This document shows positions 27-13,798 of a DNA stretch of 64,000 nucleotides, piece after piece; within the stretch, counting starts at the first letter, position 1, and each line of letters opens with the position of its first letter. A program made the position numbers and the translations under genes. The stretch spans positions 434,001-498,000 of the forward strand of contig NZ_LT629777.1 in the NCBI RefSeq assembly GCF_900105475.1, given 5' to 3'. A model generated the notes under the pieces. That model searched no databases. It was not told where the DNA came from and was given only the letters and a program-made list of their open reading frames with translations. This DNA is from Pseudomonas asplenii. Its GTDB lineage: Bacteria; Pseudomonadota; Gammaproteobacteria; Pseudomonadales; Pseudomonadaceae.

Positions 27-1469
27 ATGGTCAATATGAACTCGCCTCCCCTCTATCGCCAACTCGCCAACCACTACCTCAACGCCATCCAGAACGGAAC
101 ACTCAAGACCGGTGAACGCTTTCCATCCATTCGCCTGATGATGGAAAAACATGCCATCAGCCTTTCCACCGCCGTCCAGGTCTGTCGTCAACTGGAAGAC
201 TACGGCGTGCTGGAAGCCCGCCCACGCTCCGGCAACTTCATTCGCCAACCGGCCAAGCCCCTGGCAATTTCGACCGCCAACGAAGCGCTGCTGCCACTGG
301 ATACCAGTCATTACGTCGGTATCCACGAGCAGGTTTCTGCGGTGGTCAAGGCCAGCCAGCAGGCCTCGATCCAGGTCAATCTCGCCAGCGCCTACTGCGG
401 CGCGCAGATCTATCCATTGAAAACACTCCAGGACCACATGATCAAGGCCTTGCGCCAGGATCCGTATCTGCTCGGCAGCCCCTCCCCGGCCAGTGGCGCA
501 CGCCCACTGCGCGACTTGCTGGCCCGGCGGGCGCTGGGTTCGAAAATCAGCATCACCGCCGACAAGATCGTCATCACCAACGGTGCCACCGAGGCCATCA
601 ATCTGGCCTTGCGCGCGGTGACTCAACCGGGAGACATCGTGGCGGTGGAATCACCGACCTTCTATGGCCTCCTGCAGATTCTCGAAAGTCTGAATCTGCG
701 CGTACTCGAAGTACCGACGACGACCAAGACCGGCATCAACCTGTTCGCCCTCGAACAACTGCTGCAGGGGCCGGAACGGATCAAGGCGCTGATCGTCATT
801 CCCAACCTGCACAACCCACTGGGCAGCGTGATGCCCGATGCACACAAGGCGCTGCTGGTACAACTGTGCGCGGATTACGACACGGTACTGATCGAAGATG
901 ACACCTACTCGGACCTGGCCGATACCGAACAGCCGTTGTCGGCCCTGAAAAGCTGGGACCGCCACGGCAACCTGATCTACTGCGCGTCCCTGAACAAAAC
1001 GCTCGCCCCCGGCCTGCGACTTGGCTGGATTGCCGCGGGGAAATGGCATGAGCGGATCGAGATGCTCAAGCACACGCAATCGCGCAACTGCGAAATGCTG
1101 CCGCAACTGGCGGTCGACGCCTTCATGAAGACACCGTCCTACGAGCGCTACCTGAGAAGGCTGCGCGGGCAACTGACGGAGCAGAGAAAGCAGATGAGCA
1201 ACGCGATCATGCAGCACTTTCCGCAAGGCACGCGCATTACCAATCCCAGTGGCGGGACCTTGCTCTGGGTGGAACTGCCCGCGGGACATTCGTCGCTGGA
1301 GCTGTTTCACCAGGCGTTGCAGCAAGGTATCTATATCTCGCCGGGGATGATCTTTTCCAACTCCCGCAGCTTCGATCATTTCATCCGCATCGGTTGTGGA
1401 ACACCCTACTCGCCCCGTATCGAGAATGCGGTGCAGATCCTCGGACGGTTGATTGCGCGACAGGGCTGA
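27..1469 (+). CDS. MocR-type PLP-binding transcriptional regulator (left flank of cluster)
   Basis: A 480-residue protein with an N-terminal GntR winged helix (about residues 8-75, ending in the typical RPRSGNF wing) fused to a fold-type I aminotransferase domain. The PLP lysine is in SLNKTLAPGLRLGW, and IEDDTYSDL matches the conserved PLP-aspartate region. Family members use PLP and an amine or amino acid ligand to sense substrate. It runs convergently to the metallo-hydrolase gene of the cluster, so it may control that cluster, but this is inference. The start is uncertain: ATG at 27 or 36, with no clear ribosome binding site. Confidence 0.9.
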   Translation: MVNMNSPPLYRQLANHYLNAIQNGTLKTGERFPSIRLMMEKHAISLSTAVQVCRQLEDYGVLEARPRSGNFIRQPAKPLAISTANEALLPLDTSHYVGIHEQVSAVVKASQQASIQVNLASAYCGAQIYPLKTLQDHMIKALRQDPYLLGSPSPASGARPLRDLLARRALGSKISITADKIVITNGATEAINLALRAVTQPGDIVAVESPTFYGLLQILESLNLRVLEVPTTTKTGINLFALEQLLQGPERIKALIVIPNLHNPLGSVMPDAHKALLVQLCADYDTVLIEDDTYSDLADTEQPLSALKSWDRHGNLIYCASLNKTLAPGLRLGWIAAGKWHERIEMLKHTQSRNCEMLPQLAVDAFMKTPSYERYLRRLRGQLTEQRKQMSNAIMQHFPQGTRITNPSGGTLLWVELPAGHSSLELFHQALQQGIYISPGMIFSNSRSFDHFIRIGCGTPYSPRIENAVQILGRLIARQG

Positions 1470-1517: not shown

Positions 1518-2339
1518 TTACACCCGGTCCAGCGGATGCTCATGCAGGCAGATGATGTGCGGGTCGCCATGCCAGCGCGGGAAGCGCTGGGCCACCTGCG
1601 GATCATGCCCAGGAATGACGTGATCCTCACCATCCACCAGGGCATCGATGGTGGCGAAGGCTTCCAGGGTCTGGGCCATGTCATCGAGAATCGGGAACGG
1701 GCTGCGCAGACGGATATTGGCCCACAGGTGCGCCGAATCCGAGGCCAGCACGACCCAGCCACGCTGAGTCGGCACCCGGACCACCTGGCTGCCCGGCGTA
1801 TGCCCGCCCACCGCATGGATCGTCACACCCGGGACGATCTCCGAGGTTCCCTGGTGCAGGCGCAGGCGTCCCTCGAACAATGGCGGAATCGCCGACATCA
1901 CATCGTCCACCTCGTAGGTCTTGCTGATCGCCCGATGGGTCATCTTCGGCCCGGTGCAGAAACGCAGCTCTTCCTCCTGCAAGTGGATGGTGGCCTTGGG
2001 AAACAACCCCAGGTTGCCGGCATGGTCCCAGTGCAGGTGCGTCAGGATCAAGGTCTCGACCTCGGCCGGATCGATCCCCAACCGTTGCAGCGACTCCTCT
2101 GGCAATCGGTACATCTCGCGGTTGCGGCGATCCGCCGTGGCCGGTTGGAAGCAGGTGTCCACGACCACGACGTGCCGGTCGTTGCGAATCACCCAGAAGT
2201 AATAGTCAAGCGGCATCGGCGCATTGGGATCGCCACAGCAGGCATCGTAGAGAAAGTTCTCCCTGGCGGTACGCTGGGAGTTGGCCCCGACACGGATGGC
2301 AAAGACCTCATAGATCGGCGACAGCGATGGATTCGACAT
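1518..2339 (-). CDS. Metallo-beta-lactamase-fold hydrolase (AHL-lactonase-like)
   Basis: A 273-residue protein with the zinc motif HLHWDHAGN (His101, His103, Asp105, His106), a further His in GGHTPGS (about 180), Asp in LASDSAH (about 201) and a C-terminal HVIPGHDP. This pattern fits the lactonase/AttM-AiiB branch of the MBL superfamily, which opens lactones or other esters. It is the last gene of a six-gene operon, 13 bp after the AurF-like gene, with GGAG about 8 nt before the ATG. In this setting it could process or detoxify a cyclic intermediate. Real substrates cannot be read from the sequence. Confidence 0.85.
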   Translation of the reverse strand: MSNPSLSPIYEVFAIRVGANSQRTARENFLYDACCGDPNAPMPLDYYFWVIRNDRHVVVVDTCFQPATADRRNREMYRLPEESLQRLGIDPAEVETLILTHLHWDHAGNLGLFPKATIHLQEEELRFCTGPKMTHRAISKTYEVDDVMSAIPPLFEGRLRLHQGTSEIVPGVTIHAVGGHTPGSQVVRVPTQRGWVVLASDSAHLWANIRLRSPFPILDDMAQTLEAFATIDALVDGEDHVIPGHDPQVAQRFPRWHGDPHIICLHEHPLDRV

Positions 2340-2352
2340 ACAGGGACTCTCC

Positions 2353-3321
2353 TCAGGCCGGTTGTGCGGCAGACGCCGCCTTGACGGTCGAACTGAAATC
2401 GAAATTCATGTCCGCCGTGATACCCAGGTCCTCGGCCAGTCGATACAAGCCACTGTAGTCGCGCATGATCGCGCTGCCTCGGCTGGCTTCGCGGGTGTCG
2501 CCGATGATGACGTCGACATCGGCCACCCCGAGCTGCGTCAGGATCGCCTCCCACATCGAATAGTCCTGGGCCACGAAAGCGTTCAGCGCCTCGGGCAATG
2601 TCTGTACGAAGAAACGGCGCTTCTCGGCGTCCATGTGCTCGTACATTACCTTTGCCACTTCGGCGAGCACCTTGCTGTGGGCGTACTCGTCACGGTTGTG
2701 CAGTTCGGCGACCCGCCGGTTCTGCGGCTGTATGCTCTGGTCATCGGCGAGCATGTCCAGGTAGGCATTGACGCTGATCTCGGCGACCACCGCAAAGGTG
2801 ATAGCGGCCAGATCCCGCTGCCAGGCATGGGGCAGTTGGGCACAGAGTGCCTGCAGGCGCAGGTAGGTCACCGACGGTGGCAGGTCCAGGTCCAGTTCCA
2901 GATTGCGATCGGCCTTGCTGCGCTGGATCGCCCGCAGGTGCATCAGGGTGTGATAATGCTCGTCGATCAGCGTCTGCTGCATGGCTTCGCGAAAGTGCCA
3001 GTCATCCTTGCCCAGATACTGGTTGGCGATGACGCTCAAGGCCGGGTTGACCACACATTCCTCGGCCGTGACGGTACGCAGGTTGTAGCCAATCCAGCCC
3101 CAGGTCAGCACGGCGCTTTTCAGTTCCTCGCTCAGCGCCTGAAATTTGGGATGGTGGTAGAACGGGACCATGGCTATCGGATAGTCCGGCTTGCTCGGAT
3201 CGAATACATCGATCAGCGCAAACTTGTCGCCGGCGCAGACTGTTGCCCGCTTGGTCCAGGCCTTGTTGAGTTGCACGACCAGCTTGTGGTCGACTTTGGC
3301 AATGACAATCGCTTGTTGCAT
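2353..3321 (-). CDS. AurF-type diiron N-oxygenase
   Basis: A 322-residue protein matching the AurF/p-aminobenzoate N-oxygenase family, which oxidises amines to hydroxylamine, nitroso or nitro groups using a carboxylate-bridged diiron centre. All seven expected iron ligands can be placed: Glu at 87/88 (TAEEC), Glu121 and His124 (DEHYH), Glu181 (VAEIS), His208, Glu212 and His215 (HNRDEYAH). The spacing of the last six equals that known for AurF. The start is taken as ATG 3321 (MQQAIV). An upstream in-frame extension to 3363 looks like non-coding spacer. It sits between the dioxygenase and hydrolase genes of the operon. The substrate amine is unknown. Confidence 0.88.
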   Translation of the reverse strand: MQQAIVIAKVDHKLVVQLNKAWTKRATVCAGDKFALIDVFDPSKPDYPIAMVPFYHHPKFQALSEELKSAVLTWGWIGYNLRTVTAEECVVNPALSVIANQYLGKDDWHFREAMQQTLIDEHYHTLMHLRAIQRSKADRNLELDLDLPPSVTYLRLQALCAQLPHAWQRDLAAITFAVVAEISVNAYLDMLADDQSIQPQNRRVAELHNRDEYAHSKVLAEVAKVMYEHMDAEKRRFFVQTLPEALNAFVAQDYSMWEAILTQLGVADVDVIIGDTREASRGSAIMRDYSGLYRLAEDLGITADMNFDFSSTVKAASAAQPA

Positions 3322-3392
3322 GACGTAATACCTGTAGAGCGCGCACGGCAGCCGTGCGCGCAAGCAAAGGGAAGTTGCGGGGCCTGTACGGC

Positions 3393-4142
3393 TCAGGCGA
3401 GCCAGTAGCGGGTCAGGTGCCGCTTGGGATCGCTGTACTGGCTACGGGCATGCATCAGGCGCCAGTTGTCCCAGATCAGCACACAACCATCGGGAATCAG
3501 CAAAGGCGTCGAGTGCTCCAGGAAGAACTGCTCGCCCAATGCAGCGATTCGACCCAGGGGCGTGCCGCTGTTACGTGCCTCGGGAGCGCTCAGGTCCTCG
3601 CGGGACGGATTCACGTCGCCGTAGTGGAACTGGTTGTAGCTGAAACGAAAGATGTCGCCCTCGGTATTCGCTTTGAAAATGTACTCTTCGAGGACGCGCC
3701 GGGTCGTCTCGCCGGGCTTGGCCGTGGCGTTGAAGGCCACCGGGTGGTGTTTGATCCAGTCCTTGAGATCGACGGGCAGAGTCTTGAGAAACTCCAACCC
3801 ATCAGCCAGTTGCGTGTATCCGCCACCGCAGGTCGCCTGGTGGTGACAGTGCAGTACCAGATAGTGCGGCGGCGGATCGTAGACCGGTGCTTCGGTGTGC
3901 GGACCGATGCCATTCATGCTCTGGGAATACGGCAGGTCGTCGAAGCCCGGCTTCAGAGTCACCTCGAAGGTATACAGACCGTTGAACTGCGGGATTACCC
4001 GGCCGAATGGCGCCAGCGTCTGGTACAGATCGGCACTGAGTTCCTCGGGCTGCAACAGGGTCCAGCCCTGCTCGGCGAGTTCGCGGTGATGAGGATTCAG
4101 GGCGCGTCGCGGAGCCACGTTTGCAACAATTTCTTCCAACAT
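3393..4142 (-). CDS. TauD/TfdA-type Fe(II)/2-oxoglutarate dioxygenase
   Basis: A 249-residue protein with the iron-binding facial triad His82-x-Glu84 (GPHTEAP) and His231 (LMHARS), followed by Arg241/Arg245 positioned to bind 2-oxoglutarate. The carboxylate ligand is Glu rather than the more common Asp. It is present, so hydroxylation, desaturation or ring formation is more likely than halogenation. AAAGGA lies 8 nt before the ATG, 20 bp after the aminotransferase stop. This is the second oxygenase in the operon beside the AurF-type enzyme. The substrate is unknown but presumably an amino acid or a derivative. Confidence 0.87.
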   Translation of the reverse strand: MLEEIVANVAPRRALNPHHRELAEQGWTLLQPEELSADLYQTLAPFGRVIPQFNGLYTFEVTLKPGFDDLPYSQSMNGIGPHTEAPVYDPPPHYLVLHCHHQATCGGGYTQLADGLEFLKTLPVDLKDWIKHHPVAFNATAKPGETTRRVLEEYIFKANTEGDIFRFSYNQFHYGDVNPSREDLSAPEARNSGTPLGRIAALGEQFFLEHSTPLLIPDGCVLIWDNWRLMHARSQYSDPKRHLTRYWLA

Positions 4143-4162
4143 GACGAAAGTCCTTTTTCTGA

Positions 4163-5044
4163 TCAGGCGATGACGGCAGCGGAGTAGGCGGCGATCAGAT
4201 CACGACAGGCCTGCCCGGGCTGATACTGATGCTCATCAATGCTGCGCACCGGGGTGATCTCGGCGGCGGTTCCGGTCAGGAAACACTCCTCGAAGTCACC
4301 CAGCTCCTGCGGCAGTAGCGTGCGTTCGATCACTTCGTAGTCCAGCTCACGCGCCAGGCGGATCACCGTCTGGCGCGTGATGCCATTGAGGAAGCAATCC
4401 GGCACCGGTGTATGCAGTTGCCGGCCCCTGACGAAGAAGATATTCGCGCTGGTCGCCTCGGCCACATGACCACGCCAATCGAGCATCAGCGCATCGTGGT
4501 AACCGTTGTTCTCGGCGTCGTGCTTGCTCAGGGTCGCGATCATGTAGTGCCCCGAGGCCTTGGCGTCGAACGGGCTGCTGCTCGGTGGTGGACGCCGCCA
4601 GACCGCCGTCTTGAGTTTGATTCCAGCCATCCGCGCTGCCGGGTCGAAGTAGCTCGGCCACTGCCAGCAGGCAATCGCCAGGTGGACACTGTTGAAACGG
4701 GCCGAAGTCGAGATCATTTCACTGCCGCGCCAAGCCACGGGGCGCAGGTAGCCGTCAGTCACGCCGTTGCGTTCGAGCAAGGCATGGCTGGCATCCTCCA
4801 GCGTCTGCAGGTCGTAGGGGATGGTGAAATCCATCAGTTGCGCGGAGCGATACAGGCGCTCGGAATGCGCTCGCAGCTGGAAGATCTTGCCGCCGTAGAC
4901 ACGCTCGCCCTCGTAGACCGTACTGGCGTAGTGCAGCCCATGGGTAAGCACGTGGATCTTCGCTGCCTTCCACTCGACGAACTCGCCGTCGAGCCAGATG
5001 TAGCCGTCACGCTGGTCGAAAGGAATCGCTGCCAAGCCACTCAT
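4163..5044 (-). CDS. Class IV (branched-chain-like) PLP aminotransferase
   Basis: A 293-residue protein of the IlvE/D-amino-acid transaminase fold. The PLP lysine is in AKASGHY (about residue 162), and VAEATSANIFF and LTGTAAEITPV are typical phosphate and substrate loops. Start 5044 is supported by GGAGGTGA 4 nt upstream and an ATGA overlap with the preceding gene stop, implying translational coupling. The chromosome would normally carry a separate housekeeping ilvE, so this copy probably serves the cluster, interconverting an amino acid and a 2-oxo acid. Its exact substrate is not evident. Confidence 0.88.
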   Translation of the reverse strand: MSGLAAIPFDQRDGYIWLDGEFVEWKAAKIHVLTHGLHYASTVYEGERVYGGKIFQLRAHSERLYRSAQLMDFTIPYDLQTLEDASHALLERNGVTDGYLRPVAWRGSEMISTSARFNSVHLAIACWQWPSYFDPAARMAGIKLKTAVWRRPPPSSSPFDAKASGHYMIATLSKHDAENNGYHDALMLDWRGHVAEATSANIFFVRGRQLHTPVPDCFLNGITRQTVIRLARELDYEVIERTLLPQELGDFEECFLTGTAAEITPVRSIDEHQYQPGQACRDLIAAYSAAVIA

Positions 5045-6114
5045 ACCGTCACCTCCGCGGTGTTCATCAGGACGCTGGTCACTTCCAGCCCACACAGCCG
5101 TGCCTCGGCCATCAATACGCTCGCCTCTTCCTCGGAGGCCGGGATTCCGGCAATCAGGCGATTACGCCGGGTCTGTGCCTGGGGATCGCCGGCCACATTG
5201 ATACGCTCGCCGGCCTGGGCCGGAGTCGAACGGATGGTTTCCATCAAGCCGGCAAGGCTGCTCTGGAAACTGCGCAGGTCGGTGAAGGCAGAGATATCCA
5301 GGGCGATCATGAAATGACCGATCTGACGCCCCTTGCTGAAAGAGCCGGTGTCCAGATGATCCAGTTGGTGATCCAGCGGCATGCCGGTCAGCAGGCAACT
5401 GAGCACCTGCACCATCATCGCCAGCCCCTGTCCCTTGTAGCCACCCAGAGGGGACAGCGAAACCACCTCATCCGGCTCGGCGGTATCGTTGCCATCCTTG
5501 TCCAGCGCCCATCCCAGCGGCAGCGACAGACCGAGCTTGCGGTAATGCTTGACCTGGGAGTAGGAGATCTGACTGGTTGCCATGTCGAGCACGAACGGTT
5601 GTTCGTCCGCCGGCGCGGTGAAACAGATCGGGTTGGTACCGAACATCGGCTGCTTGCCCTTGAACGGCGCCATACGCGCGGCAGCGCTGGTGGTGACGAT
5701 ACCGATCATGCCGCTGTTGGCGATCTCCAGTCCGTAGACCGACGCTGCGCCGAAGTGGTTGGAGTTGCCGACGCCGACTGCGGCGATGCCGCTGCTGCGA
5801 GCCTCCTGAACAGCGAGCTTGGCCGCGTACATGCCAGCCACGGTGCCCAGTGCCTGGTCGGCGTCGAGGACCATCACGTTACCGTTGCGTCGTTGCACAT
5901 GGATGTTCGGAATCGCATGGCTACGGCCTTCATCCAGCTCCCGCAGGTACAGGGGGAGCAGGCGCAGGCCATGGGTATCGACCCCCATCAGCGAAGTGTC
6001 CACAAGGGCATTGGCGAACCATTTGGCGTGCTCCGTCGACACGCCGCGGCGTTTGACCGCCTGGGCACAGACCTGGCGAGCAGTGTGCGGATTCAGATAA
6101 ATCATGGTGTTCAT
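5041..6114 (-). CDS. Ldh2/malate-lactate dehydrogenase family oxidoreductase
   Basis: About 357 residues, PF02615-like: the GNSNHFGAASVY segment carries the catalytic His, and YKGQGLAMMVQVLS and the C-terminal RINVAGDPQ segment are typical. The family reduces 2-oxo acids or cyclic imines (Delta1-piperideine- or pyrroline-2-carboxylate) with NAD(P)H. Placed between a radical SAM enzyme and an aminotransferase, it could reduce a 2-oxo acid or imine made by transamination; this is inference. The likely start is ATG 6114 (MNTMIYL); an in-frame TTG at 6138 would overlap the upstream stop. Its end overlaps the aminotransferase start. Confidence 0.85.
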   Translation of the reverse strand: MNTMIYLNPHTARQVCAQAVKRRGVSTEHAKWFANALVDTSLMGVDTHGLRLLPLYLRELDEGRSHAIPNIHVQRRNGNVMVLDADQALGTVAGMYAAKLAVQEARSSGIAAVGVGNSNHFGAASVYGLEIANSGMIGIVTTSAAARMAPFKGKQPMFGTNPICFTAPADEQPFVLDMATSQISYSQVKHYRKLGLSLPLGWALDKDGNDTAEPDEVVSLSPLGGYKGQGLAMMVQVLSCLLTGMPLDHQLDHLDTGSFSKGRQIGHFMIALDISAFTDLRSFQSSLAGLMETIRSTPAQAGERINVAGDPQAQTRRNRLIAGIPASEEEASVLMAEARLCGLEVTSVLMNTAEVTV

Positions 6115-6134
6115 TCCATCGAATGGGTTTGAGA

Positions 6135-7481
6135 TCAAACGGCTTCCAGCACGGCGGGAATCAGTTTCGGCGGCGCGGTACTCTCGTTCTGGAAGAAGAA
6201 GAGCTCTTCGCCGAAGGCCGGGACCAATTCATCGAACCAGGTCGCCTGCGGATCGAACTTGGCGTAGAAGGTTCGCAATACCCACTGTGGATCGCGGGCC
6301 TGGAGAAATTGCAGGACGAAGACTTTCTCACCGGCCACGGTCTCGATCCCGTTGATCACCACCTTGCCGTAGAACGTACTCATCGACGGTCCGCGCACGG
6401 TGCGCGCCAACCCGGAAACCGTACGATAAGCCGACTGGTAGATCTCGAAGGCGCGGTACAACGGCATCGCGAAGTAGTGGCTGGGACCGGTATCGCGCTC
6501 GACGAAGAAGTAGTAGGGAATAGCGCCCAGCCGTACCCCTTCGGTCCACAGCGCCGCCCAGTCGGCCGGATCTTCGTTGATGTGGCGAATCAGCGGCGCC
6601 TGGATCCGCAGGGTCGCGCCGGACGAGCGGATCCGCTGGATGGCCTGGCGGGCCATGTCCTGCCTGATCTCTACCGGATGGTTGTAGTGCCCCATCACCG
6701 ACAGATTCTTGCCACTGGCCACCACCCGCCTGAACAGATCGATCAGGGCGTCGGCATCCTTGTCCGTGACAAAGCGTTGTGGCCAGTAGGCGACCGACTT
6801 GGTACCCAGGCGGATACTCTTGATATGCGCCATGTCCGGCGCCAGCAGCGGCTCGATGTACTCGGCCAGGGAGCGGGTGTTCATGATCAGCGGATCACCA
6901 CCAGTGATCAGCACGTCCGTGACCTCGGTATGCACCCGCAGGTAAGCCGCCAGTTCCTGGGATTCGCGGGCGTTGAACTTGAGCTCATCCTCACCGATGA
7001 ACTGCGCCCAGCGGAAACAGAAGGTGCAGTAGGCATGACAGGTCTGACCGGCACCGGGAAAGAACAGCACAGTTTCCCGATACTTGTGCTGGATACCCGA
7101 CAAGGGCTTGCCGTCCAGGGTCACGGTGTTATGAGTCAGTTGTCCGGCCGGATGCGGGTTCATCCGTTGCCAGACCTGTTCCACCTGACGCTTGACCGCC
7201 GCGCTGTCATCCCCATCGATCAGGGCCTTCAGAGCCTCGTACTCATGGGGATGAAGCATGTCGCGGTGGGGAAAGGTCATGCGGAAAATCGGATCGTCCG
7301 GAATATTGTTCCAGTCGATCAGGGTACTGAGCACGTAATCGTTGGTGCGAAACGGCATGACCTTGGATACGACTGTCATTGCTTCCTGCAACTGCGGAGT
7401 CAGCCTTTGCCAATACACCGTATCGCGGATAGTTCGTGAATTATAAGGTTTATACTTTTGCGGTTCGGACATTCCCTGCAT
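6135..7481 (-). CDS. Divergent KamA-family radical SAM aminomutase
   Basis: A 448-residue protein with the 4Fe-4S motif Cys148-x3-Cys152-x2-Cys155 (CHAYCTFC), then VLITGGDPL, SIRLGTKS and GHYNHPVEI as in lysine 2,3-aminomutases, which use PLP plus a 5'-deoxyadenosyl radical to move an amino group from C2 to C3. The usual glycine-rich PLP-lysine motif (PGGGGK) is absent. Its position holds GPSMSTFYGKVV, with Lys373 the best candidate. It is also not EpmB-like (no CRYCFRR). It is the first gene of the operon, with AGGAG 7-8 nt before ATG 7481. Substrate could be any alpha-amino acid; the product would be a beta-amino acid. Confidence 0.85.
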   Translation of the reverse strand: MQGMSEPQKYKPYNSRTIRDTVYWQRLTPQLQEAMTVVSKVMPFRTNDYVLSTLIDWNNIPDDPIFRMTFPHRDMLHPHEYEALKALIDGDDSAAVKRQVEQVWQRMNPHPAGQLTHNTVTLDGKPLSGIQHKYRETVLFFPGAGQTCHAYCTFCFRWAQFIGEDELKFNARESQELAAYLRVHTEVTDVLITGGDPLIMNTRSLAEYIEPLLAPDMAHIKSIRLGTKSVAYWPQRFVTDKDADALIDLFRRVVASGKNLSVMGHYNHPVEIRQDMARQAIQRIRSSGATLRIQAPLIRHINEDPADWAALWTEGVRLGAIPYYFFVERDTGPSHYFAMPLYRAFEIYQSAYRTVSGLARTVRGPSMSTFYGKVVINGIETVAGEKVFVLQFLQARDPQWVLRTFYAKFDPQATWFDELVPAFGEELFFFQNESTAPPKLIPAVLEAV

Positions 7482-7733
7482 GACAGCGCTCCTGAAGATT
7501 CTGTTATGAGTTCGGCTATTTATGACTTTGAACCAGACAGATTTGCCGGATAGTTACCCGGCGATCACAGACAAAAAAAATCCCATTGCCCTGAGCGTCA
7601 TATAAACGCGGCAACTTGTTTTTATTAATTAGAGGTCATCGACCACTGCCAGCAACTTCGTGCCTATTGGGATCTTCACGCCACTCATCAAGATCAATCG
7701 ATCCTTGTCCCCAACGGATCGACCAGGGCGCTT
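7482..7733 (-). promoter_or_regulatory. Upstream region of the radical SAM operon
   Basis: This 252-bp non-coding gap should hold the promoter of the six-gene operon. It contains an inverted repeat GCCGG (7545-7549) / CCGGC (7558-7562) about 65 bp upstream of the start codon, a possible operator, and an A-tract at 7573-7580. No confident -35/-10 pair was assigned. Confidence 0.35.
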
Positions 7734-8387
7734 TCAGCTTGCAGGCAACGGCGTCACGCGCTCCTGCCCGACCCAGGCCTGGACACTGGCGCGGCTCCAC
7801 TGCCGACGGACATAGGCCGCCAATGGCTCGGGCATCTCGTCACCATTGGCCAGCAGGCGGTTGAGCATGATCGCCAAGTCCGTATCGGCAATACTCCAAT
7901 CACCGAACAGATGGCCATCGCTGTCACCCAGAAAGGTACCCGCCACCCGATACAGACGCTCTACAGCCGCCTTGGCCGCATCGGACAGGGGTTGATCGCG
8001 CTTGCCGAAATAGATCAGGTCGGCCGGCCGCTCCTGCCGGATCACCAATAGATCGCTGCGCAAACAGGCCTGCAGTTGACGGGCCCGGGCACGCTCTTGC
8101 AGACCACGGGGCAGAACCGATTTATGGCCTGCATCGGCAAATGCCTCGTCGAGGTACTCGGCGATGGCCGACGACTCGGTCAGGGCGAAACCGTTGTGCA
8201 CCAGGGTCGGCACCTTGCAGGTCAGCGACAGGTCACGATAGGCCGGCAGGTAGTTATCGCGCTTCTTGAGATCGACAGTGACGATATCAAACGGAAGTTC
8301 TTTTTCTTTCAACGCAACAAAAGCCGACATCGCAAAAGCGCTGACAAAATCGGCGCCAACATGAAGAGTTAGTTTTTGCTCAAGCAC
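7734..8387 (-). CDS. yfcF: Glutathione S-transferase, YfcF type
   Basis: A 217-residue protein with an N-terminal thioredoxin-like domain (KVPTLVHNGFALTESSAIAEYLDE carries the cis-Pro and the glutathione-binding ES pair) and an all-helical C-terminal domain (LFGDWSIADTDLAIMLNRL). It resembles E. coli YfcF, which has glutathione transferase and peroxidase activity. Start is GTG 8387 after AAGGGA. It lies between the two operon-like groups of the cluster and may protect against a reactive product, or it may be an unrelated resident gene. Confidence 0.85.
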   Translation of the reverse strand: MLEQKLTLHVGADFVSAFAMSAFVALKEKELPFDIVTVDLKKRDNYLPAYRDLSLTCKVPTLVHNGFALTESSAIAEYLDEAFADAGHKSVLPRGLQERARARQLQACLRSDLLVIRQERPADLIYFGKRDQPLSDAAKAAVERLYRVAGTFLGDSDGHLFGDWSIADTDLAIMLNRLLANGDEMPEPLAAYVRRQWSRASVQAWVGQERVTPLPAS

Positions 8388-8682
8388 AGGATGTTCCCTT
8401 CCTTCTTCAGATATATGAAAGCCTTAACCGAATTGCTCGATTAAAAACTGTCCGGCAGGCAGACAACCAGGCAACGTACAGGTGTACACCCGGTTGCCAT
8501 CACTCGAATTAACTCAGAGATACTGCCTACGAGATGGATCGTAAATAACTGCATGAACCTTCGATAGATACAGAAAATATCAGTTTGTATCGATACAGAT
8601 GACGGCTGAATGAGGGAATGCTTGCAGCGATCTTCGGGAGAGAAAGAGCGGGGCGCGGAGGGAAATAGCAGGCATGAATGCA
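8388..8682. other. Non-coding gap between GST and cupin genes
   Basis: No convincing gene is seen in this ~295-bp interval. The part nearest the GST is relatively AT-rich and could contain its promoter. Confidence 0.4.
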
Positions 8683-8714
8683 GACAGGGAGCCAGCGGAC
8701 GCTGGCTCCCTGTC
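8683..8714 (-). terminator. Perfect 14-bp stem hairpin downstream of cupin gene
   Basis: GACAGGGAGCCAGC (8683-8696), loop GGAC, GCTGGCTCCCTGTC (8701-8714): a fully paired 14-bp stem 32 bp after the cupin stop codon. There is no U-tract in either direction. It most likely marks the 3' end of the MFS-ATP-grasp-RidA-cupin transcript and separates it from the GST. Confidence 0.6.
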
Positions 8715-8745
8715 GGGGAGAACAATGAGGGGGGATTGTGCCGCG

Positions 8746-9231
8746 TTATCGGGCCTTGCTGATCCGGCCGTTCTGATCAGCAAAATTTGACAGCGCCGCC
8801 ACCTGCGGCATGTTGCTGATGTTGAGCATGACCAGTGCCTCGTCCACGGAGCCATTGACGAACCCGTGGGAGTTCCAGGCGGGCACGACGATCACGTCAC
8901 CTGCACTGACCGGCACGGGCTGGGCATCACCCAGGGTCAGTTGCCCCTGGCCCGACTGGATGATGAACAGGTGCCACCAGGTATGGGCATGCTGGTTCAG
9001 AGTGGAGCCGGGGTTCAGCCATTGCATCGAGATCACGGTACCCGGCAGGATTTCGCAACCGCCAATGCTCGACTCGCTCGACAGCGCGACGATGTCGGTA
9101 TCACCAGGTTGCATATCGCGTTGCAGGCTGGCCAGGTCCGACCCCTTCCATACCTGCGGTCGAGGTGACTCGCCCTGCAGACTGTCGCGAAAATCCTGGT
9201 AGGTGAAAAAGCTGCCTTTGAAGGTGTCCAT
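8746..9231 (-). CDS. Single-domain cupin protein
   Basis: A 161-residue protein with cupin motif 1 around PGSTLNQHAHTWWHLFII (HxH and a second His), GQGQLTLGDA between the motifs, and motif 2 SAGDVIVVPAWNSHGFVN (His conserved). The His set suggests bound metal. Cupins of this size act as isomerases, dioxygenases, epimerases or small-molecule sensors, so function cannot be fixed. It is 52 bp downstream of the RidA-family gene and appears to be in the same transcript. Confidence 0.8.
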   Translation of the reverse strand: MDTFKGSFFTYQDFRDSLQGESPRPQVWKGSDLASLQRDMQPGDTDIVALSSESSIGGCEILPGTVISMQWLNPGSTLNQHAHTWWHLFIIQSGQGQLTLGDAQPVPVSAGDVIVVPAWNSHGFVNGSVDEALVMLNISNMPQVAALSNFADQNGRISKAR

Positions 9232-9283
9232 GTGTCATTCCATTTTTTTGCGGCGAAACGTTCCCACCGCGCAGACATTGATT

Positions 9284-9781
9284 TTATAGCTGGCGCAACG
9301 CCCCTTCGTTAACCGCGGCAATGATATCGACTTCAATGGCGGCATTCTTCGGCAACTGATACACCCCAACCGTCGTCCGGGTATGCCGGCCGGCATCTCC
9401 CAATACTCGATGGAACACATCCGAAGCACCGTTGGCGACCTCACTGAGTTCGGGAAAATCCTCTGTCGACTTGACGTAGACCGTCACCCGCGCAAGGGAC
9501 TTTATGCGATCCAGCGAGCCAATGGTTTGCAGAATCAACGCCAGCCCGCGCATGGCGCTGATACCGGCAGCTTTCTGCGCCTCTTGCAGAGTCAGGTTGG
9601 CGCCGACCCGGCCGGGAAGGATCACCTTGCCGCTCATCATCGGTACAAGGCCGCTGACGAACACCTGGTCATGCAGCCGCAGTACTGGCGAGTAATGCCC
9701 TCCAGCGGTATTTTCGCCATAGATGTCATAAGCCAGTTCCTGGGCTACAGCGATAAAACGTTCATCACACGACATCGACAT
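9284..9781 (-). CDS. RidA/YjgF-family protein
   Basis: 165 residues from ATG 9781 (MSMSCDERF). RidA proteins hydrolyse reactive enamines/imines released by PLP enzymes. VFVSGLVPM, RVTVYVKSTEDFPELSEV and TTVGVYQLPKNAAIEVDIIA match the trimer-forming family. AAGGA lies 4 nt before the first ATG and 10 nt before the second (9775). An alternative GTG at 9847 overlaps the ATP-grasp stop (GTGA), follows GAAGAGG, and would add 22 residues unlike the family fold. Its placement beside PLP and ligase enzymes suggests handling of an imine intermediate. Confidence 0.85.
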   Translation of the reverse strand: MSMSCDERFIAVAQELAYDIYGENTAGGHYSPVLRLHDQVFVSGLVPMMSGKVILPGRVGANLTLQEAQKAAGISAMRGLALILQTIGSLDRIKSLARVTVYVKSTEDFPELSEVANGASDVFHRVLGDAGRHTRTTVGVYQLPKNAAIEVDIIAAVNEGALRQL

Positions 9782-9843
9782 CACTTCCTTATGAGACTGG
9801 GCAAGCTCCGGGATTGAAGACTCAAGCCATGAGCCACCGGGGT

Positions 9844-11139
9844 TCACGACAGGGCCTCTTCACGCCGGGCTGAGGGTTCGACTTCCAGCGGCGCGACAAT
9901 GATCTGCGACTCGATGGCCTTGACCAGCCTCAGCAGTTGCTCGTTGAGCATGGAATAGTCGCTGTTGAAGAGAATGACGTGGCCAATGAACGAGGTGTTG
10001 TCCGTCACCAGAGCACAAACGCGCTCACCCACGCCCTTGCTGTACAACGCCTCTATCACCTCGATACCCAGTTCGGCAGCCAACCCCCGGATGTCCGGCA
10101 GATGTTGAAGCTCACCATTGGCCGGAGCACTCAGCAGCCGTATACCACAGTAGCCTTGCGCTACCGGCTGCTGCGCCTCCATCCGCCCTTCTACCGCCCA
10201 GCGCACCCAGCTTTCCCAGGGGTTGTAGGCGGCAAAGGCTTTGCAGGCGAGGTCCCAGATGTGCATGCCACCTGGGCGCATGTTGGTTTCCACGGCCGAG
10301 GTCAGGCCGTTACGCTTGAAAAACACCTCGTTGTGATAAGCCCCATTGTGCGGCGAAACCAGCTGGCGCATATGCTCGCCCGCGGAGGCGATGGCCGTCA
10401 GGGCATCACCACTCAGCGGCGCCGGGACCACCTGCTGGATCTCGGCACGATAGGCACCTTCAGTGGTGGTTTTCTCGGTGATCCAGGAACATCCCGCTAC
10501 GCAGTCCCAACTGTATTCCCGGGCCTCCTCCACCAGCTCTTCGACAATGATGCCACCCGAGCGATACTGCTCCAGCGCGGCCCAGGCCTCGGCGCATTCG
10601 GCCAGCGAGTGAATGACCCGGCAACCCCGGCTGGCGCCCTCGCAGGCGGGCTTGATGAAGGCCTTGCCGCCCAGTGCCTGAACGCGCTGACGCAATTCAT
10701 CCAGTTGCTCGACCCGGCAGGAAAACACCGGCTGATAAGTCGCCGGTGAGCTGGGCGAAGCCGCTTCCAGGCGGCGGAAGATTTCCTTGTCCAGACCAGC
10801 ACGGGCCTCATCGGGGGTAATCCCCGGCAAGCCATGGCGCGTGGCCAGACCGGCACCGAGCAGGACTCCACGGTCGGAAAACGGCAGGACACCGATCAGG
10901 TTCCACTGTTCGAGGTCCAGGCAGCCGCACACCGCCTCCAGGGCGCAATCCAGGTGTTCGGCGGCAAGCGAGGTGGTCCAGACGTAGTCCGCCACTTCGT
11001 AGTCTTCCAACTGGACCTTCTCCACCAGCAGGATCAGCTTGGCCTGATAAAGCGACTGGCACAGCTGGCGCAGCTTGGCGATGTCATGCACGCGATTGCC
11101 GTTGTAACCGACCACGATCACACAGGGTTTTGTACTCAT
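9844..11139 (-). CDS. ATP-grasp amide/peptide ligase-like protein
   Basis: A 431-residue protein with an N-terminal Rossmann-like domain (CVIVVGYNGNR), the ATP-grasp lysine segment GKAFIKPACEGASRG, the adenine-hinge region IIVEELVEEAREYSWD and the metal-binding ETNMRPGG motif typical of L-amino-acid ligase-like enzymes. Such enzymes activate a carboxylate as acyl phosphate and join it to an amine. This is the only ligase in the cluster, so it probably conjugates the product, for example as a dipeptide. It lies 20 bp downstream of the exporter gene. Confidence 0.85.
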   Translation of the reverse strand: MSTKPCVIVVGYNGNRVHDIAKLRQLCQSLYQAKLILLVEKVQLEDYEVADYVWTTSLAAEHLDCALEAVCGCLDLEQWNLIGVLPFSDRGVLLGAGLATRHGLPGITPDEARAGLDKEIFRRLEAASPSSPATYQPVFSCRVEQLDELRQRVQALGGKAFIKPACEGASRGCRVIHSLAECAEAWAALEQYRSGGIIVEELVEEAREYSWDCVAGCSWITEKTTTEGAYRAEIQQVVPAPLSGDALTAIASAGEHMRQLVSPHNGAYHNEVFFKRNGLTSAVETNMRPGGMHIWDLACKAFAAYNPWESWVRWAVEGRMEAQQPVAQGYCGIRLLSAPANGELQHLPDIRGLAAELGIEVIEALYSKGVGERVCALVTDNTSFIGHVILFNSDYSMLNEQLLRLVKAIESQIIVAPLEVEPSARREEALS

Positions 11140-11159
11140 GTCAGATCTCCCCTGCGGAC

Positions 11160-12260
11160 TCAGTCATTCAACGGTGCGTTGAGTTTGCGATTGAGGCCGT
11201 ACCAGGCCAGGATCCCGAGGGCACCGATCAACCCCAGAACGTAGGCGTTGTAGGGATCCGGCAGTACCCGCATCAACAGCACGGTCACACCGGCACCGAC
11301 ACCCAGGGACACCTCCTTGGCGAACATGCTGTTCTGCTTCACGGAAAAGTAGTCCAGATAGCTGAACGCACACTCGGCGATGGACAGCAGGGTGACCCAG
11401 ATGAATGCGCCGAGCAGGGTCTGCACATGGAAAAGCGCAGGCGAGGAAAGCACGAGGAAGCCGGCGAAGATGATGCCGATCACGGTGAATACCTTGAACC
11501 GGCCGGTCGCCTCGATGACCCGCATCACCGGCACCTGCAGAAACACCACAACAGCACTGTTGAGGATCAGCATCAGGCCATACCAGGAGGGCAATTCGCC
11601 GGTTTCCCGCAGGATCGCCTGGGGCAGGATGGAAAACACGCCGAACAGCTTGATACCCATGATGATCCCGGCGATCACCCAGGGCAGTTTGCCCAGCCAG
11701 CCGGTACCACCCTGGCTCTTCGTCGGAGTGGAAATGACCGGCAGCTGGATGCTCGCGCCAATGGCGACCGGCAGGCACATCAGGACAAAACCGGCAGCGC
11801 CGAGAAAGAACAGGGTGGGAGTCAATTGTGGCGACAACAGGATCAGGCCGGCGATCAGGCTGCCCATGTTCATGGCCACACGGTTATACGCCGCCCCCTC
11901 CTTGGTCTGGGCTGCCTCGCTCTTGATCAGATAACCGGCGATGGCGATCCCGTAGGCGAACAGGGCCGCACCGAACATGACAATCCCCTGGTCCTTGGTC
12001 AGAGCCAGCAGTACCAATCCCCCCGCAGCGCACAGCAGGGTGACGCCGAGGGAGCGACGCCCCAGCAGCAGCAGGGTCAATGGCAACAATAGCAGGAGTG
12101 CGCGATAGCCCAACGCCAGGATACTGTTGGTGGCGGTGTCGAGCCAGACGTTGGCCTTGCCCAATACTGCGAACAGCGACACCGCAGTAATGATCCGAAT
12201 AATGAACAAGCGGACGTTAACGGCCGGCTTGGTCATCTCGGCTGTTGTTTCAAGACTCAT
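11160..12260 (-). CDS. MFS-type exporter
   Basis: A 366-residue hydrophobic protein with about 10-12 predicted membrane segments of the major facilitator superfamily. Start is ATG 12260 (MSLETT), which has GAAGAGG 6 nt upstream; a longer TTG start at 12275 is unlikely because it would include that site. It is the first gene of the MFS-ATP-grasp-RidA-cupin group and is divergent from a MocR regulator. It probably exports the cluster product or gives self-resistance; uptake of a precursor is an alternative. Confidence 0.82.
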   Translation of the reverse strand: MSLETTAEMTKPAVNVRLFIIRIITAVSLFAVLGKANVWLDTATNSILALGYRALLLLLPLTLLLLGRRSLGVTLLCAAGGLVLLALTKDQGIVMFGAALFAYGIAIAGYLIKSEAAQTKEGAAYNRVAMNMGSLIAGLILLSPQLTPTLFFLGAAGFVLMCLPVAIGASIQLPVISTPTKSQGGTGWLGKLPWVIAGIIMGIKLFGVFSILPQAILRETGELPSWYGLMLILNSAVVVFLQVPVMRVIEATGRFKVFTVIGIIFAGFLVLSSPALFHVQTLLGAFIWVTLLSIAECAFSYLDYFSVKQNSMFAKEVSLGVGAGVTVLLMRVLPDPYNAYVLGLIGALGILAWYGLNRKLNAPLND

Positions 12261-12373
12261 GGAAAACCTCTTCAATCAGAACGACACACTGGATGATGGA
12301 GTCGATACTAGTGAGCGAAGGTCTTCTTGATCAGAGCAAGTTGGACTAGAATCATCCGAACTTTATTGCTCGG
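12261..12373. promoter_or_regulatory. Divergent promoter region, MFS operon / MocR
   Basis: A 113-bp gap between divergently transcribed genes. It must contain both promoters, plus a GGATGA half-site at 12291-12296 that matches one arm of the inverted repeat at 12352-12377. No -35/-10 pair could be assigned with confidence. Confidence 0.5.
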
Positions 12374-12377
12374 ATGA
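12352..12377. promoter_or_regulatory. Candidate MocR operator, perfect 8-bp inverted repeat
   Basis: TCATCCGA (12352-12359), 10-bp spacer, TCGGATGA (12370-12377). The right arm overlaps the first possible start codon of the regulator. Position and symmetry suit autoregulation together with control of the divergent exporter operon. Confidence 0.5.
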
Positions 12378-13798
12378 CCAGTAAAATGCAGGCGCAAAGA
12401 GCCGTAATCGCTGCTATCGAGTTCGAGTCCGGCCCGCCACTGGTCCAGCAGATCGTTGAACACTTCACTTCGGCTATCAGCCAGGGATCCCTGCAACACG
12501 GAGCCAAGCTACCGCCAATACGCGAACTCTCCGAGTTGATGAGCGTCGGCAAATCGACCGTCGTCGAAGCTCTGGACCGCCTGCGGGCCAAGGGCCTGAT
12601 CGCCTCCCGGCAAGGCTCGGGACACTATGTCACGCGCCTCAGCGCGGCCGCCCATGCCGGCGTTGGCCGTGACCTGCTGCCGCAGGACACCCTCAGCGTG
12701 GTGCGGCGCGCCCTGCTGCTGGACAACGGGGCCCTGCGCCCCGGCTGCGGCTTCCTGCCCTCCTCCTGGCTGCCTGCCGAAGAATTGCTCAAGGCCGCCC
12801 GCGGCGCCCTGCGCGCAACCACCCTGCGCATGGGTGAAGCAGGCCTACCCGCCGGTTATCTACCGTTGCGCCAGGCCCTGCGGGTCAAACTGGCGAGCTT
12901 CGGTATTGAAGTTCCGGTCGAGCAGATCGTGACCACCGCCAACACGGTGCAGGCCATCGACATGCTGATGCGCCTGTTGATCAAGCCGGGCGATACGGTG
13001 CTGCTGGATGATCCCTGCTATTTCAACCTGCGTTCGAACCTGTCGCTGCATGGCGCCAAGGCGATCAGCATCGCCCGCAGTTGCGAGGGGCTGGACTTCA
13101 CCTGCCTGGAACAGTTGCTCGAACAACATCGTCCGGTGCTGTATCTGACCAACACCACGCTGCACAACCCGACCGGACACTCCTTTTCCCCGGCCCAGGT
13201 CTATCGCCTGCTGGAGTTGAGCCACCGCTATGACTTTCATATCGTCGAGGACGACCTGTACTGCGATATCCAGCACAAGCGCACACCTCGACTGGCCGCC
13301 GCCGGTGGCTTGGAAAACATCAGCTATGTGTCGGGCTTCACCAAGACGCTGAGCGCCAACAGTCGGGTCAGTTACGCCGTGCTGGCGCCACAGTTGGCGG
13401 CGCGGATGATCGCGCTGAAGATGATGAGCGGCGGCGTGACCTCGGAGCTGGCCGAACAGATGACCTACCGGATGCTCAGCGATGGCAGCTACACCCGACA
13501 TGCCCGGCGACTGGTCGACCGCCTGTACGAGTCGAATGCGCGGGTCGCGCAGTGGCTGGGCGAAGCCGGTTGCGCGGTCTCCTCCTGTCCAGGAGAGGGG
13601 CTCTTTCTCTGGACCCGCCTGCCGGCCGGCATGGACGCCGAGGTGCTGGCTCGCAAGGGCCTGGAAAATGACATCGTACTGGCGCCGGGCACCTTGCTCA
13701 GCGTGACGGACGACGCGACGAGTTTCCTGCGGTTCAACGTTGCCCACAGCGATGATGAACGTGTCCGGGAACGCTTCCTGCGATTGCTCGACGAATGA
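12374..13798 (+). CDS. MocR-type PLP-binding transcriptional regulator (right flank of cluster)
   Basis: 474 residues: GntR winged helix (about residues 20-87, RQGSGHYV wing) plus aminotransferase-like domain with IVEDDLYCDI and the PLP lysine in VSGFTKTLSANSRVSY. It is divergent from the exporter gene and is probably its local regulator, a common arrangement for MocR proteins. ATG 12374 has no ribosome binding site and lies inside an inverted repeat; ATG 12386 is an alternative start. It differs in sequence from the regulator at the left end of the cluster, so the two are not a recent duplication. Confidence 0.88.
   Translation: MTSKMQAQRAVIAAIEFESGPPLVQQIVEHFTSAISQGSLQHGAKLPPIRELSELMSVGKSTVVEALDRLRAKGLIASRQGSGHYVTRLSAAAHAGVGRDLLPQDTLSVVRRALLLDNGALRPGCGFLPSSWLPAEELLKAARGALRATTLRMGEAGLPAGYLPLRQALRVKLASFGIEVPVEQIVTTANTVQAIDMLMRLLIKPGDTVLLDDPCYFNLRSNLSLHGAKAISIARSCEGLDFTCLEQLLEQHRPVLYLTNTTLHNPTGHSFSPAQVYRLLELSHRYDFHIVEDDLYCDIQHKRTPRLAAAGGLENISYVSGFTKTLSANSRVSYAVLAPQLAARMIALKMMSGGVTSELAEQMTYRMLSDGSYTRHARRLVDRLYESNARVAQWLGEAGCAVSSCPGEGLFLWTRLPAGMDAEVLARKGLENDIVLAPGTLLSVTDDATSFLRFNVAHSDDERVRERFLRLLDE

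Follow-up and report, generated by a model that had tools for sequence, protein, structure and literature searches.

The locus at positions 1518..12260 (minus strand) of a 64,000-nucleotide stretch of Pseudomonas asplenii DNA (contig NZ_LT629777.1, positions 434,001 to 498,000; hereafter the window), from a 6.53-Mb Pseudomonas genome in a single contig, raises the question of what its eleven co-oriented genes make together. The original prediction had placed these genes between two MocR-type regulators, had guessed a small N-oxidised beta-amino acid or its dipeptide as the product, and had known no characterised pathway with this gene set. All eleven open reading frames (ORFs) and both MocR genes were found open at these places, and no published cluster was recognised as matching in literature searches, MIBiG and antiSMASH not being among the sources searched. 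We read the locus as a conserved cluster of two operons that makes a small N-oxidised amino diacid and probably releases it in dipeptide form, and give this reading, which is drawn from sequence comparison, a probability of about one half. The guessed product is partly supported and is sharpened to an acidic amino acid of the glutamate type.

The family names given earlier were upheld for ten of the genes by Pfam and NCBIfam. Matches to Lactamase_B (metallo-beta-lactamase fold, MBL), AurF, TauD, class IV aminotransferase, Ldh_2, glutathione S-transferase (GST), cupin and Rid-type families were obtained; the KamA-type radical S-adenosylmethionine (SAM) gene scored below the cut-off of Pfam Radical_SAM, and the profile score of the ATP-grasp gene was also below cut-off. 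The label of a major facilitator superfamily (MFS) exporter could not be confirmed, as the polytopic membrane protein concerned (371 aa, 11160..12260, longest ORF to 12275) matched nothing in Pfam or NCBIfam at E 0.001 and gave a poor structural model (mean predicted local distance difference test, pLDDT, of 44.5); it is called MFS-like below and is regarded as a putative exporter. Gene starts were re-judged against homologues, and some longest ORFs begin too early; the probable starts are at 3321 for AurF, 5044 for the aminotransferase and 6114 for Ldh2. Coordinates below are on the minus strand unless otherwise stated.

Conservation of the gene set in Pseudomonas

The aminomutase, ATP-grasp and AurF proteins were searched against 398 Pseudomonas genomes, of which 71, 59 and 267, respectively, gave a match at E 0.001 or better. 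Cut-offs for close matches were set at gaps in the match lists, at identities of at least 79% for the aminomutase (next below, 65%), at least 63% for ATP-grasp (next below, fragments at 44-54% and full-length proteins at about 30%) and at least 73% for AurF (next below, fragments at 54-65%). Close matches to each protein were found in 38 genomes, and the three sets of 38 were identical; the joint presence of these three member genes exceeds chance, related genomes not being independent in the counts. A hypergeometric value for the overlap takes no account of common descent and was set aside. The whole region was viewed in 34 of the 38 genomes, besides the window, and all 34 loci carried the MFS-like, ATP-grasp, Rid, cupin, GST, aminomutase, aminotransferase, TauD, AurF and MBL genes in one order and direction. 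The two gene groups, whose lack of co-occurrence across genomes had been named beforehand as a refutation, thus co-occur. Ldh2 was present in one of the 34 other loci (G044) and is therefore regarded as accessory rather than as a conserved member, so that ten of the eleven genes originally taken as a unit travel together, in many Pseudomonas of soil.

Among the loci in closer view (L031-L049), all 19 had the ten genes, and cyoE, the next gene past the cluster, stood at one side in 17, the sequences of L033 and L048 ending before its place. The AurF, aminotransferase and MocR1 genes of G316 (L132) are each split into two pieces, indicating that this copy of the cluster is broken. In G021 (L012), G241 (L006) and G232 (L030), viewed near the aminomutase only, the aminotransferase gene adjoins the aminomutase gene without Ldh2, and in G232 AurF lies on a different contig. 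The aminomutases of the window and of Pseudomonas gingeri A6001 share 98% identity.

The ATP-grasp search across the class (369 genomes, E limit of 1e-20) returned only the window's own protein, and that against plasmids returned seven records at 22-31% identity. Outside Pseudomonas, a version of the cluster in Trinickia terrae contains the aminomutase, Ldh2, aminotransferase, TauD, AurF, MBL, cupin and GST genes and a different MFS gene; the Rid, ATP-grasp and MFS-like genes are without a match there.

Four Pseudomonas genomes (L133-L136) have lost the cluster from the same place between cyoE and MocR2, leaving one open frame of 221-230 aa that joins the start of the ATP-grasp gene to the second half of AurF (L133:8320-9006; L134 from 8850, plus strand; L135 from 9450, minus strand; L136 from 8475, plus strand). 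Pairwise ratios of nonsynonymous to synonymous change were 0.26-0.39 for this frame, 0.09-0.15 for the adjacent MocR2 and 0-0.05 for cyoE, and one Glu among the AurF ligands is His in all four. We therefore see the fusion either as a slow relic or as a chimera that has gained a new role. MocR2 was retained despite the loss, at 82-83% identity to that of the window.

The aminomutase and the N-oxygenase

The KamA-like radical SAM/pyridoxal 5'-phosphate (PLP) aminomutase (6135..7481) was assigned by NCBIfam, alignments and a tree. Its score was 133 bits in the KamA family model (cut-off 199) and 109.8 bits in the lysine 2,3-aminomutase model (cut-off 525.4). The CxxxCxxC cluster motif of KamA-family radical SAM/PLP aminomutases is present, and its cysteines (C148, C152 and C155) as well as Arg329, Arg363 and Lys373 show no variation across 21 aminomutase sequences, including three about 50% identical proteins from actinobacterial plasmids. 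By its motif, Lys373 may be the counterpart of KamA Lys337, the PLP lysine, the tool alignment stopping before Lys373. Profile alignment with lysine aminomutase 2a5h placed Arg329 on Asp293. In lysine aminomutase the side chain of the substrate lysine is held by aspartates, the places of which are probably taken here by the two arginines; this makes an acidic amino acid of the glutamate type the probable substrate.

The AurF-type diiron N-oxygenase is encoded at 2353..3321 (longest ORF to 3363), the probable start being chosen from homologues. Residues E87, E121, H124, E181, H208, E212 and H215 (numbering of P0241) are invariant in 17 AurF relatives and match the positions of what we take to be the seven metal ligands of AurF. 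The surroundings of related aminomutase genes were tabulated for 99 loci (L031 onward, aminomutase match of at least 45%, other genes at most 9 kb away, short loci L001-L030 excluded). Of these, 24 had AurF, MBL and cupin, 11 had a flavoprotein, MBL and cupin, seven had the flavoprotein and MBL, three had the flavoprotein only, and 54 had none of the four. The two N-oxygenases never occurred together (0/99), and each of the 42 MBL-bearing loci carried one of them, the 99 loci not being independent (L131/L046 and L132/L049 are apparently the same genomes, the aminomutases of L077 and L079 are identical, and those of L088 and L092 nearly so).

The flavin-type sister clusters, found in Streptomyces, Kitasatospora, Pantoea, Burkholderiaceae and some Pseudomonas, also contain the aminomutase and MBL genes. 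The flavoprotein of L098 matches 8cp2 along its length, and the remaining flavoproteins were assigned from their identity (44-67%) to the L098 protein. 8CP2 is an L-aspartate N-hydroxylase that performs three hydroxylations to form nitrosuccinate (PMC10404684). The presence of a flavin N-oxygenase, not homologous to AurF, at the place of AurF in the sister clusters gives separate support to N-oxidation, and the AurF-type enzyme would N-oxidise an aliphatic amine, the product of the aminomutase. In an aminomutase tree of 61 rows, built by a quick method and with long branches flagged (L097 among them), 14 AurF-type rows lay on one side of a single branch (Shimodaira-Hasegawa-like approximate likelihood ratio test, SH-aLRT, 99), three of them (P0007, P0008 and P0029) being so labelled only because an AurF match comes from a contig of equal length. 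Their neighbours were rows with neither N-oxygenase (SH-aLRT 88), flavin-type rows stood elsewhere, and an unlabelled Acinetobacter protein sat within the AurF-type clade.

Relatives of the aminomutase were also seen in other settings. A 50% identical relative (L112) lies in a type I polyketide synthase (PKS) cluster; we infer that this cluster makes a macrolactam and that IdnL4 of incednine biosynthesis belongs to the same aminomutase family. Many Oxalobacteraceae loci (L055, L057, L061-L074 and many more) pair the aminomutase with an MFS gene (45-52% identity to the Pantoea one) and have no N-oxygenase or MBL gene; beta-glutamate is perhaps made and exported there, or serves as a solute. Flavin-type clusters of Pantoea and Rahnella (L092:6365-9868 and L088) also hold an ATP-grasp gene and, besides the aminomutase gene, another radical SAM gene of KamA-like type. 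On a Rhodococcus plasmid, the relative (L113:9007-17713) adjoins cupin, SidA-like, class I tRNA ligase-like and saccharopine dehydrogenase-like genes, which we take to be the gene set of hydrazine biosynthesis. Such a hydrazine pathway was rejected for the window, where the tRNA ligase-like, SidA-like and saccharopine dehydrogenase-like genes are not among the eleven.

Proposed pathway and its alternatives

As suggested by family and residues, the pathway would begin with the KamA-like enzyme shifting the amino group from the alpha carbon to C3 in an acidic amino acid, most likely L-glutamate, to form beta-glutamate, the amine of which would be oxidised by the AurF-type enzyme, perhaps to a nitro group (3-nitroglutarate) and perhaps to a hydroxylamine or oxime only. 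More speculatively, the TauD-type Fe/2-oxoglutarate dioxygenase (3393..4142), in which the HxE...H iron triad was kept in six aligned sequences, might hydroxylate C2, the alcohol might be converted to a ketone (by the Ldh2-type dehydrogenase, 5041..6114, longest ORF to 6138, where present), and the class IV (IlvE-like) aminotransferase (4163..5044, longest ORF to 5095) might add an alpha-amino group, giving a 3-N-oxidised glutamate; this order is speculative and follows from chemical reasoning only. The ATP-grasp enzyme (9844..11139), whose predicted structure is closest in fold to the L-amino acid (dipeptide) ligases BL00235 (3vot), RizA (4wd3) and BacD/YwfE (3vmm, 3wnz), would couple the N-oxidised product to another amino acid, and the membrane protein would export the dipeptide.

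The MBL (1518..2339), cupin (8746..9231), GST (7734..8387) and Rid-type (9284..9847, true start perhaps later) proteins would have tailoring or protective roles. The cupin contains an HxHxxxH...H motif, and the MBL protein, a lactonase-like hydrolase with HxHxDH kept, shows weak similarity to N-acyl homoserine lactone (AHL) lactonases. Beta-hydroxyamino acids can close a ring; in view of this and of the lactonase similarity, the MBL protein may reopen such a ring.

A more specific version can be put forward tentatively. Two exchangeable, unrelated enzymes (the diiron AurF type in Pseudomonas; the flavin type in actinomycetes, Pantoea and Burkholderiaceae) would make a nitro diacid from beta-glutamate, and in Pseudomonas hydroxylation, oxidation and amination of the carbon beside the nitro-bearing one would yield 3-nitroglutamate, an antimetabolite that a dipeptide would conceal in the manner of a Trojan horse. 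If true, this would be a new natural-product pathway in which an AurF enzyme takes an aliphatic beta-amino diacid as substrate, thereby extending AurF-type chemistry to aliphatic amines, and a short route to an aliphatic amino acid bearing a nitro or oxime group, with no nonribosomal peptide synthetase or PKS genes in the cluster. One core of aminomutase and N-oxygenase would then unite orphan clusters of Pseudomonas, Streptomyces, Kitasatospora, Pantoea and Burkholderiaceae, and the common label "lysine 2,3-aminomutase" on the aminomutase family would be corrected.

Several observations weigh against a pathway from glutamate to an N-oxidised dipeptide. The aminomutase scored equally low in the arginine (93.2 bits, cut-off 600) and glutamate (92.9 bits, cut-off 650) models, thus falling short of TIGR04368, the clostridial-type glutamate 2,3-aminomutase; single-sequence alignment with 2a5h set Glu328, not Arg329, on Asp293, and the placing of Arg363 on Asp330 is a hand alignment to a motif. 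IdnL4 was likened to the window enzyme by description, its own sequence lying outside the comparison. The AurF-type protein has as its two nearest solved relatives the 4-aminobenzoate N-oxygenase and another diiron enzyme, which we take to be CmlI, both of which act on arylamines. The predicted ATP-grasp fold carries no information on substrates, and neither the ligase nor Rid was found in the Trinickia terrae version, so that they are not core there. As Ldh2 is missing from 33 of the 34 other loci, there is a gap in the third step, which weakens the order TauD, Ldh2, aminotransferase.

These nearest solved relatives, arylamine N-oxygenases, would suit an AurF homologue oxidising an aromatic amine, as for aureothin and chloramphenicol, with the aminomutase only supplying a beta-amino acid partner for ATP-grasp coupling. 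However, no aromatic-amine gene is among the eleven, and the sister clusters carry an aspartate N-hydroxylase relative at the place of AurF, which makes this explanation unlikely; an arylamine pathway was rejected because the eleven include no precursor genes, unlike two annotated clusters with more distant relatives (L116 and L117), which carry pabB. It is still less probable that the aminomutase makes beta-lysine for a beta-lysine peptide. The name "lysine 2,3-aminomutase" on many relatives in databases and the rank of lysine as the top of the three specific NCBIfam scores are in its favour, but the score is far under the cut-off, Arg329 and Arg363 are invariant, and with Arg329 or Glu328 at Asp293 the identity as a lysine 2,3-aminomutase was rejected.

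The N-oxidised diacid might instead be a nitrite carrier, which would lose its nitro group so that the cell could use nitrite or a reactive nitrogen species, comparable to the aspartate-nitrosuccinate pathway, in which the family of the sister flavoprotein makes nitrosuccinate and a lyase then frees nitrous acid (PMC10404684). The eleven genes gave no match to a fumarase/aspartase-type lyase, and the conserved ligase and putative exporter also speak against this idea, to which we give little credence. Degradation or detoxification of a nitro or amino compound would accord with MocR control and with GST, Rid and MBL, families common in detoxification, yet the N-oxygenase, the aminomutase and the ligase with its dipeptide-ligase fold point toward synthesis, and a catabolic role appears quite improbable.

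Operon structure, surroundings and known systems

The cluster is more likely two operons than one. The gap between GST and aminomutase genes is 35-59 bases in 16 of 18 loci compared and about 260 in the window and L031; as it is short in most loci, GST probably heads the second operon. The first operon looks to consist of the MFS-like, ATP-grasp, Rid and cupin genes, and the second of the GST, KamA-like, Ldh2, aminotransferase, TauD, AurF and MBL genes. Comparison of gaps in 20 loci revealed a conserved TCTGTATC box pair between cupin and GST, upstream of the latter (8564..8598), and, between the MFS-like gene and MocR2 (12328..12366), a conserved element that contains an imperfect inverted repeat, each operator-like and found at a single place in the window. 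As the two elements differ, the simplest reading is one MocR regulator per operon, and MocR1 and MocR2 probably control one each.

Both regulators combine a GntR domain with an aminotransferase domain (Pfam/NCBIfam) and lie on the plus strand, MocR1 at 27..1469 and MocR2 at 12374..13798, divergent from the first operon. A MocR1 homologue occupied the corresponding position in 18 of the 19 loci L031-L049 (93% identity in L031, 69-76% otherwise); the sequence of L033 ends short of that place and gave only a 25% match there. Ten other window proteins scanned (13948-58734) were all ordinary: a sigma-54 activator, a CheW/receiver protein, a chemoreceptor, a pilus usher, a resistance-nodulation-division (RND) pump, a GGDEF protein, three Mur ligases and a penicillin-binding protein.

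Among known systems, AurF and CmlI are homologous to the window enzyme, which keeps all seven metal ligands, whereas arylamine precursor genes are not among the eleven and the substrate in the window is predicted to be aliphatic. The L-amino acid ligases BL00235, RizA and BacD/YwfE resemble the modelled ATP-grasp enzyme in fold and differ in sequence, with about 15% identity. IdnL4, for the macrolactam starter unit of incednine, is likewise a radical SAM/PLP enzyme proposed to make beta-glutamate; a review regards it as a likely glutamate 2,3-aminomutase on the strength of feeding and gene-disruption work, with no activity in vitro (PMC11284099). The eleven genes, unlike that system, include no PKS or carrier protein. 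The L-aspartate N-hydroxylase FzmM/CreE of fosfazinomycin and cremeomycin has a homologue beside the same aminomutase and MBL in the sister clusters, in place of which the window has AurF, without a nitrosuccinate-type lyase. As a lead only, the nitro dipeptide antibiotic nitropeptin, cited by title in PMC5138215, represents a possible product class.

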